Positions 19,924-21,013 of a stretch of 64,000 bases of DNA are shown piece after piece (within the stretch, counting starts at the first letter, position 1; each line of letters opens with the position of its first letter). Under the pieces are notes generated by a model, which was given only the letters and a program-made list of their open reading frames with translations, ran no database searches and was not told the origin of the DNA. Source of the DNA: Peptococcaceae bacterium BRH_c8a. Its GTDB lineage: Bacteria; Bacillota; Desulfotomaculia; Desulfotomaculales; Desulfallaceae. The DNA lies in NCBI GenBank assembly GCA_000961575.1, contig LADP01000018.1, forward strand, positions 124,001-188,000, in the 5' to 3' direction. A program made the translations under genes and the position numbers.

Positions 19924-20017
19924 TCATGGATTGTGGATTATCCGGAGAACGTTTAGAGAAGCATTAAGTATACAGTATTTATTGAGATTACCAGTAAACT
20001 TTTACAGCTAATTAGTT

Positions 20018-20107
20018 TATAATGTATGGTAAGAGTTGTTACCGGGGCAATGGCGTCCCTTACGTACCTGTATCTGCAGGAATGTAGGGGACGTTTTTAT
20101 TTTTTTA
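20018..20107 (+). ncRNA. Structured leader with terminator, riboswitch-like
   Basis: TATAAT (20018-20023) would start a transcript near 20030. It holds a hairpin GGTAA/TTACC (20028-20043), a CCGGGG segment, an inner CCTG/CAGG hairpin, and a long stem GCGTCCCTTAC/GTAGGGGACG (20053-20093) followed by TTTTTATTTTTTT. CGTCCC could pair either with upstream GGGG or with downstream GGGGACG, so alternative folding is possible. It ends about 30 bases before a small zinc-ribbon gene with its own AGGAGG. No known riboswitch class was recognised; a free small RNA is the alternative. Confidence 0.5.
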
Positions 20108-20138
20108 ACTCAACCTTTCCGGGTCAAGGAGGAATATA

Positions 20139-20345
20139 ATGGCTATAGCATGCAGAGTCAGGGACAACAAAGTTATTCCCATAAGAAAAGGCATACTTAT
20201 CAGTGTAAAAGAAAATATTACTGAACTAATAAACCAGGCCTTTGTTTGTGCCAACTGTGGATTCGGCACAGCTTTTGAAAAAAAGTGGCAGCCGGTAATG
20301 GAAACGAGTCGCTGCCCGATGTGTGGCAGCCAAAAGAAAAGGTAG
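20139..20345 (+). CDS. Small zinc-ribbon protein
   Basis: A 68-residue protein with C37-x2-C40 and C59-x2-C62, a classical zinc ribbon, plus C5. The middle (KGILISVKENITELINQ) is likely a strand and helix. The family is not recognised. The ATG has AAGGAGG seven bases upstream, and the gene is flanked by its own leader terminator and a downstream terminator, so it is a separate, probably regulated unit. Confidence 0.7.
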   Translation: MAIACRVRDNKVIPIRKGILISVKENITELINQAFVCANCGFGTAFEKKWQPVMETSRCPMCGSQKKR

Positions 20346-20351
20346 TTACGG

Positions 20352-20382
20352 AAGCCCGGTTTACACCGGGCTTTAACTTTTC
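20352..20382 (+). terminator. Terminator after small zinc-ribbon gene
   Basis: Stem AAGCCCGGT/ACCGGGCTT with a short loop, then TAACTTTT. Confidence 0.75.
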
Positions 20383-20548
20383 TAATCAAGAAAATAAATA
20401 AGCCGCTGGGCAGCTGGTTTGTTTTGTTGTTTTTAATCATTGCCCACAAAAATGCCGATCTTTTCTTACAGTTTTTTCATAATTAGTGGGTAAAATATAA
20501 GACAGTGAGGTTAAAAATATTACTGTTATGTGGAAAGGAGGTGTAACA

Positions 20549-21013
20549 GTGAAAAAGAAATTAGTTTTGTTAACCGTTACACTACTTTTGGTATTCAGTA
20601 TTACTCAGGTGGCTGCGGCGGCCGGAATGGGCTGGGATGGCGGCCCGCACAAGCTAAACAGTGATAAGATGTTTAACCCGGTTGAGAAATTAAACCTCAC
20701 CGATCAACAAATTGTTAAAATGCGGGAAATCAATCAAAAGACCTATGAGCAAACCCGCGACCTGCGTATTAAAATGATGGATAGCCGGCATGAGCTTAAA
20801 CAACTTAAACTGCAGAAAAACCCGGATCAAGCCCAAATTGATGCCAAGGTAAAGGAAATTAACAACCAGCGTGATAAGCTTCACGGCATTTTCCAGCAGA
20901 GCAAGGAACAGTGCCACTCTTTACTTACCCAGGAACAACTCGAACAGGTCAAACAATTCAAAGGGAATAGGGGCGGCGGTTTACGAGGGAATACCGGGCC
21001 GGCCAATCAGTAG
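20549..21013 (+). CDS. Spy/CpxP-like exported protein
   Basis: A 154-residue protein with a signal peptide (KKKLVLLTVTLLLVFSITQVAAAAG) and a long helical body. LNLTDQQIVKMREINQ and LLTQEQLEQVKQF are LTxxQ-type motifs of the Spy/CpxP family, whose members are ATP-independent chaperones or envelope stress sensors. The Gly-rich tail is unusual. The GTG at 20549 has AAAGGAGGT six to seven bases upstream; the frame's earlier start has none. Closed by a double hairpin. Confidence 0.75.
   Translation: MKKKLVLLTVTLLLVFSITQVAAAAGMGWDGGPHKLNSDKMFNPVEKLNLTDQQIVKMREINQKTYEQTRDLRIKMMDSRHELKQLKLQKNPDQAQIDAKVKEINNQRDKLHGIFQQSKEQCHSLLTQEQLEQVKQFKGNRGGGLRGNTGPANQ

Follow-up and report, generated by a model that had tools for sequence, protein, structure and literature searches.

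The question raised by this locus is what controls a 68-codon gene for a small zinc-ribbon protein, encoded in the 64,000-nucleotide stretch of Peptococcaceae bacterium BRH_c8a DNA that was analyzed as a whole (the window). The initial annotation, made from the letters and their open reading frames, had described a TATAAT box, a terminator with a T-run, a ribosome binding site, and a 68-residue zinc-ribbon open reading frame, and all of them are present in the sequence. On the forward strand, the -10 box TATAAT occupies positions 20018 to 20023, which would place the start of transcription near position 20030. The hairpin GGGGC-AAUGGC-GUCCC, a candidate antiterminator designated P2, follows at 20044 to 20059, with a stem of 20044-20048/20055-20059 and a hexaloop, AAUGGC, at 20049 to 20054 that has A1 and G4. 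Its 3' portion is shared with the 5' arm of an intrinsic terminator stem-loop at 20052 to 20095, identified by folding and covariation. The terminator T-run TTTTTATTTTTTT (20094 to 20106), directly after the stem-loop, and a Shine-Dalgarno sequence, AGGAGG (20127 to 20132), were read from the sequence, and the open reading frame, with its CxxC...CPxCGS..KR pattern and a pI of 9.6, spans 20139 to 20345. A terminator-like hairpin lies 3' of the gene, on the same strand, at 20351 to 20374, and suggests a single-gene transcript. The next gene, at 20528 to 21013 of the window (+), encodes a CpxP/ZraP-like small exported protein and shows no sign of a common leader.

The segment CGUCCC (20054 to 20059) indeed has two exclusive partners, GGGGC (20044 to 20048) or GGGGACG (20087 to 20093), as had been proposed from the sequence. 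The 87-nt leader gave a folding energy of -34.0 kcal/mol, compared with -19.2 ± 3.2 kcal/mol in 200 shuffles (z = -4.6, with no shuffle as low), and the leader taken from the predicted start gave -31.4 kcal/mol. In folding of the growing transcript, P2 was in the lowest-energy fold at 30 to 55 nt (one alternative at 45 nt also keeps P2), and the terminator displaced it from about 60 nt. Comparison among genomes established the element and its covariation. An alignment of 22 leaders was used, from which 3 of 25 (G048, G016, and G030) were omitted with the terminator or T-run out of register. All five positions of the P2 stem were paired in 22 of 22, with a G-C to A-U exchange in 5; at five of the seven zinc-ribbon loci, GGGGC/GUCCC is replaced by GGAGC/GUUCC. 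Among 47 loop-anchored segments, stem pairs 3, 4, and 5 were formed in 43, 42, and 36, compared with means of 30.7, 31.3, and 26.0 in shuffled segments (0 of 1,000 shuffles as high as observed); these pairs were not required by the selection of the segments, some of which are chance occurrences, and relatedness was left in. The terminator helix covaries as well, with 25 both-sided cells and 0 of 500 shuffles as high. Hexaloop A1 and G4 were invariant in the 22 aligned leaders, where the search pattern had imposed them for most non-zinc leaders and the seven zinc-ribbon loci had come from a protein search instead; the hexaloop is likewise present at 20 of 29 sites located through the promoter. 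Transcription attenuation, the layout first put forward for this leader, is well supported, since P2 competes with the terminator and covariation is seen in each helix. Nor does the hairpin serve only to end the transcript of an upstream gene, a possibility the initial annotation had raised, as a clear -10 box of their own (5/6 or 6/6 positions in a scripted scan) is found in 26 of 29 leaders.

A DNA search showed that the 60-nt hairpin region recurs elsewhere in this genome and in its relatives. One copy precedes the glutamine synthetase gene, glnA, and sits directly downstream of a gene for an ANTAR-domain response regulator, and the other precedes an operon encoding a ferredoxin-type (Fe-S) protein, a reductase, and glutamate-synthase parts. 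A covariance model, R1, built from the 22 leaders, gave exactly three matches in this genome at E ≤ 0.05, namely, the zinc-ribbon leader (67.5 bits), glnA, and the Fe-S/glutamate synthase operon. An R1 match lies 96 to 125 nt downstream of the ANTAR domain in 12 of the 17 genomes scanned for ANTAR. In a phylum sample of 299 genomes, an ANTAR domain was found in 144 and an R1 match (E ≤ 0.01) in 31, and every one of the 31 fell within the 144 (hypergeometric P = 2e-11, relatedness ignored), so that restriction of the element to ANTAR-bearing genomes is likewise established by comparison. The R1-positive genomes divide into 9 of 31 within the order behind the model and 22 of 31 outside it. There was no R1 match (E ≤ 0.05) in 21 of 60 relatives, though ANTAR genes were present in 17 of 17 genomes scanned, and none in 113 of the 144 ANTAR-bearing genomes of the phylum sample. 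The R1-negative relatives either carry divergent elements missed by the model or lack the element; divergent P2 forms such as GGAC-AAUGGC-GUCC account for part of the misses.

On these grounds, we believe that the leader is very probably an ANTAR-dependent transcription attenuator. Its short A1/G4 hexaloop hairpin (AAUGGC, 20049 to 20054), overlapping the 5' arm of an intrinsic terminator, corresponds to the P2 element of ANTAR antiterminators as defined by Ramesh et al. in 2012 (PMC3369931), and this genome (G000) encodes two ANTAR proteins. An ANTAR protein from this genome aligns with EutV (6wsh/6ww6) over 182 residues with an E value of 1e-24. The EutV residues reported to contact RNA (PMC8934654), R142, K143, K147, K149, E160, and Y164, correspond to R, K, R, K, E, and F, respectively, by a manual count along the alignment. 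The ANTAR dual-hexaloop RNAs of Enterococcus faecalis eut, nasF, and amiE (PMC3369931) resemble this leader in having an A1/G4 hexaloop P2 that overlaps the terminator 5' arm, in the nitrogen genes downstream, and in the ANTAR response regulators encoded beside a target. The present leaders differ in having no detectable upstream hairpin (P1), in the addition of a fixed upstream DNA site, and in that one target is a zinc-ribbon gene. ANTAR targets have been described at glutamate synthase genes of Desulfotomaculum reducens, together with a 13-element nitrogen regulon in D. acetoxidans (PMC3369931). Those regulons, in which ANTAR elements likewise precede glutamate synthase genes and further nitrogen genes, are probably, going by their published description, of the same type as the one described here, and the main text of that paper makes no mention of the zinc-ribbon gene or the DNA site. 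The NitR antiterminator and clostridial control of glutamine synthetase and glutamate synthase (GS-GOGAT), cited in PMC4676874, are alike in that an antiterminator-type regulator is tied to glutamine synthetase expression, the comparison being one of regulator type and not of leader sequences.

A dual-hexaloop ANTAR RNA carries an upstream A1/G4 hairpin, P1, and a linker, and these were not found here. A scan for P1 (A1/G4 hexaloop, at least 3 bp, within 45 nt before P2) yielded 3 of 29 leaders, compared with 3.7 ± 1.9 in shuffles. The distance from the start of the -10 box to P2 is 18 to 28 nt in the seven zinc-ribbon leaders, which leaves approximately 6 to 16 nt of RNA if transcription starts 12 nt after the beginning of the box; the value is about 14 nt for the leader studied here and about 6 to 7 nt in G010 and G007, where the box starts 18 to 19 nt before P2. 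These leaders have no room for P1, since a 12-nt P1 and a 5-nt linker together exceed that length; the P1-P2 linker is 5 to 12 nt among the E. faecalis eut genes (PMC3369931). Since the defining P1 feature failed when tested, we do not class the leader as a dual-hexaloop ANTAR RNA; it is, judged by its sequence, a single-hexaloop variant. EutV requires P1 in vivo (PMC3369931), which weighs against ANTAR control of a leader that lacks it, whereas the paper on the EutV-RNA structure revised the minimal binding motif to one hexaloop and left open how broadly single hexaloops are used (PMC8934654).

A canonical dual-hexaloop target with an overlooked P1 would reconcile this leader with the need of EutV for P1 and with the matches that the dual-hairpin model of Ramesh et al. 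gave in two Desulfotomaculum species (both PMC3369931). The obvious candidate is the first hairpin of the initial annotation, GGTAAGAGTTGTTACC (20028 to 20043), which can be folded from the sequence as GGUAA-GAGUUG-UUACC, with a nonstandard hexaloop and 5 bp. Its loop has G1 and U4, though, and it is probably nonfunctional because it begins about 2 nt before the expected start (near 20030) and the same-genus orthologue (G002) is unable to form it. The few nucleotides of RNA before P2 in G010 and G007, deduced from the position of the -10 box, also speak against a hidden P1, and we regard one as unlikely. Canonical tandem A1/G4 hexaloops do occur in some R1 matches outside the order, for example, in G114 (GGAGGC-AAUGGC-GUCUCC, 10 nt, GGGC-AAUGGC-GUCC). 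The P1 count there was 7 of 20 (9 of 500 shuffles as high), a rough figure in that the rule took an upstream hairpin as P2 in G143, G186, and G388; of the 22 genomes in this set, G221 had no locus and in G158 (1 of 21 loci) the rule recognized no loop. P1 continues to be regarded as necessary for antitermination, and the zinc-ribbon leaders constitute a natural, testable set in which the promoter leaves it no room.

Two explanations without an ANTAR protein were weighed. The leader had been called riboswitch-like, and direct binding of a metabolite or metal would agree with an attenuator layout of competing helices; Rfam, moreover, is incomplete. Nevertheless, the Rfam scan that the initial annotation had recommended gave no gathering-level match over the window and no family for the leader, and at E values up to 10 there were only two chance-level matches, both outside the leader. 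The RNA upstream of P2 is only about 14 nt long, and P2 and the terminator were the only conserved folds found. The element is also common to the leaders of glnA, next to ANTAR regulator genes, and of glutamate synthase, and its distribution follows ANTAR genes. Direct ligand binding is thus highly improbable in our estimation. The suggestion that the small protein is a metal-responsive factor fares no better, as no evidence pointed toward metals and the regulon is one of nitrogen assimilation. Alternatively, the hairpin could simply end an approximately 70-nt transcript with no regulated read-through, as a constitutive terminator or the end of a small-RNA gene, the latter also raised initially. 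Such a role would suit the strength of the terminator (the -31.4 kcal/mol given above) but would make the P2 pairing, conserved with compensatory change, superfluous, and all 29 leaders listed have a gene downstream, mostly for glutamine synthetase or glutamate synthase. We give this explanation very little weight and retain ANTAR-dependent attenuation.

In the mechanism that we propose, the promoter, probably aided by a DNA-binding protein at 19966 to 19979, would start a short transcript in which P2 folds first. Unless P2 is held, the longer terminator stem would capture its 3' arm, and transcription would stop before the gene. An activated ANTAR response regulator would presumably bind the hexaloop and hold P2, allowing RNA polymerase to read into the zinc-ribbon gene. 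The regulator would most simply be one of the two ANTAR proteins encoded on contig C39, one of them directly upstream of glnA. Activation presumably occurs under nitrogen limitation, a signal that we infer only from the functions of the coregulated genes. The zinc-ribbon protein would then be coproduced with GS-GOGAT, as glnA and the glutamate-synthase operon lie behind the same switch.

The functional region appears to be larger than initially annotated, with a conserved DNA site upstream, AAGTATACAGTATT, at 19966 to 19979 (+), centered near -57, that is a putative operator or activator site. The corresponding motif, AAGTATACARTATT, is matched at 11 or more of its 14 positions in 22 of 29 leaders (a mean of 1.9 and at most 6 in shuffles), and each of these sites starts 50 to 53 nt upstream of the start of the -10 box. 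At the zinc-ribbon loci, the site is exact over 13 positions in six of seven and has one change in the seventh. The pattern GTATACARWAT-N37-41-TAWAMT had 66 matches in 60 genomes, compared with 4 for a reversed control. A site so fixed in position implies a putative DNA-binding regulator, and the leaders thus point to a second regulator that would act at the level of DNA. A literature search found no published GTATACA nitrogen site. The 30 promoter-pattern loci that were read precede glnA, glutamate synthases, amtB-like genes, a nifV-type homocitrate synthase gene (in this genome), lysA-like genes, and a few others; glnA, glutamate synthase, and nifV (TIGR02660) were assigned by family, and the remaining gene names were read from translations. 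These loci represent 29 distinct sites, biased to close relatives. At 20 of the sites, P2 and a terminator overlap, compared with 0.5 (maximum, 3) in shuffles, under an automatic rule that accepted doubtful hairpins (L174 and L177 among the 20).

Some promoters of this kind stand without P2. The nifV-type gene (TIGR02660; L075 2141-3298 [-], contig C5) has a GTATACARTAT-N-TAAAAT promoter at approximately G000:C5:36380-36435 and no P2, so that the DNA site may function independently of ANTAR control. The lysA-like genes of one family (L170, L171, and L172) likewise have a GTATACARTAT promoter without P2, a hint that the DNA-level regulon reaches lysine synthesis. In another setting, paired palindromic sites, AAGTATACAATAT...ACACTGTATACAGTAC (with variations), carry the same core motif as the DNA site just after an apparent spoIIIA sporulation operon in L079, L081, L084, L087, L089, L090, and L092.

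Among 113 genomes of the order, a profile of six homologues detected the zinc-ribbon protein in 7, and in a phylum sample of 398 genomes it was detected in this genome only; the gene is absent from the same-genus genomes G001 and G003. All seven zinc-ribbon loci, which were found without using the RNA, have the P2/terminator leader, a conservation established by comparison. Because all seven homologues carry it, the gene appears to be a conserved part of the GS-GOGAT ANTAR regulon. The encoded protein contains a CxxC and a CPxCG pair; its pI is 9.5 to 9.6 in the three homologues computed, and it reached no curated Pfam or NCBIfam cutoff. It shares the CxxC...CPxCG pattern of the Zn_ribbon_8/FmdB-type zinc ribbons (PF09723 and TIGR02605), and membership was rejected at scores of 18.0 against a cutoff of 34.4 bits and 14.8 against 31.3. 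A structure predicted from three sequences was unusable (mean pLDDT, 47.5), and comparison of a profile with solved structures yielded only weak matches (best E, 0.004).

Conserved regulation ties an unannotated zinc-ribbon protein to nitrogen assimilation. Judged by this regulation, it would be a nitrogen-response protein, most likely a small basic effector that targets a nucleic acid or an assimilation enzyme. A literature search, outside whose scope lay the supplementary tables of Ramesh et al., which could list the gene unnamed, returned no earlier report of ANTAR with zinc-ribbon or small proteins, nor one in Desulfotomaculum nitrogen regulation. We offer a broader model tentatively and consider it possible rather than probable. 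The GS-GOGAT regulon of the order might combine P1-less, single-hexaloop ANTAR antiterminators with a nitrogen-responsive DNA-binding regulator whose site is fixed about 57 nt before the transcription start. Under their joint control, a new small zinc-ribbon protein would be made that might tune glutamine synthetase, glutamate synthase, or transcription when nitrogen is limiting.

Two further observations concern the other leaders. In five glnA leaders (L009, L013, L049, L051, and L053), the 5' leader seems able to pair with the segment ahead of the ribosome binding site, e.g., AGGTAAAT...ATTTACCT, and in a few close relatives the match was striking. Such long-range pairing was rejected, as 17 glnA leaders paired no better than swapped partners (permutation P = 0.13); the same test gave P = 0.66 for the zinc leaders and P = 0.06 for the glutamate-synthase leaders. 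The glutamate-synthase operon leader (L020, reverse strand from 608; L023, from 2787) contains another terminator, which has a P2-like hairpin of its own, GGGC-AAUGGA-GCCC. Between the two terminators lies a further hairpin, AACCCC-AAAGAC-GGGGUU, whose loop is AAUGGC in a sister genome, and from its sequence this leader reads as tandem attenuators.
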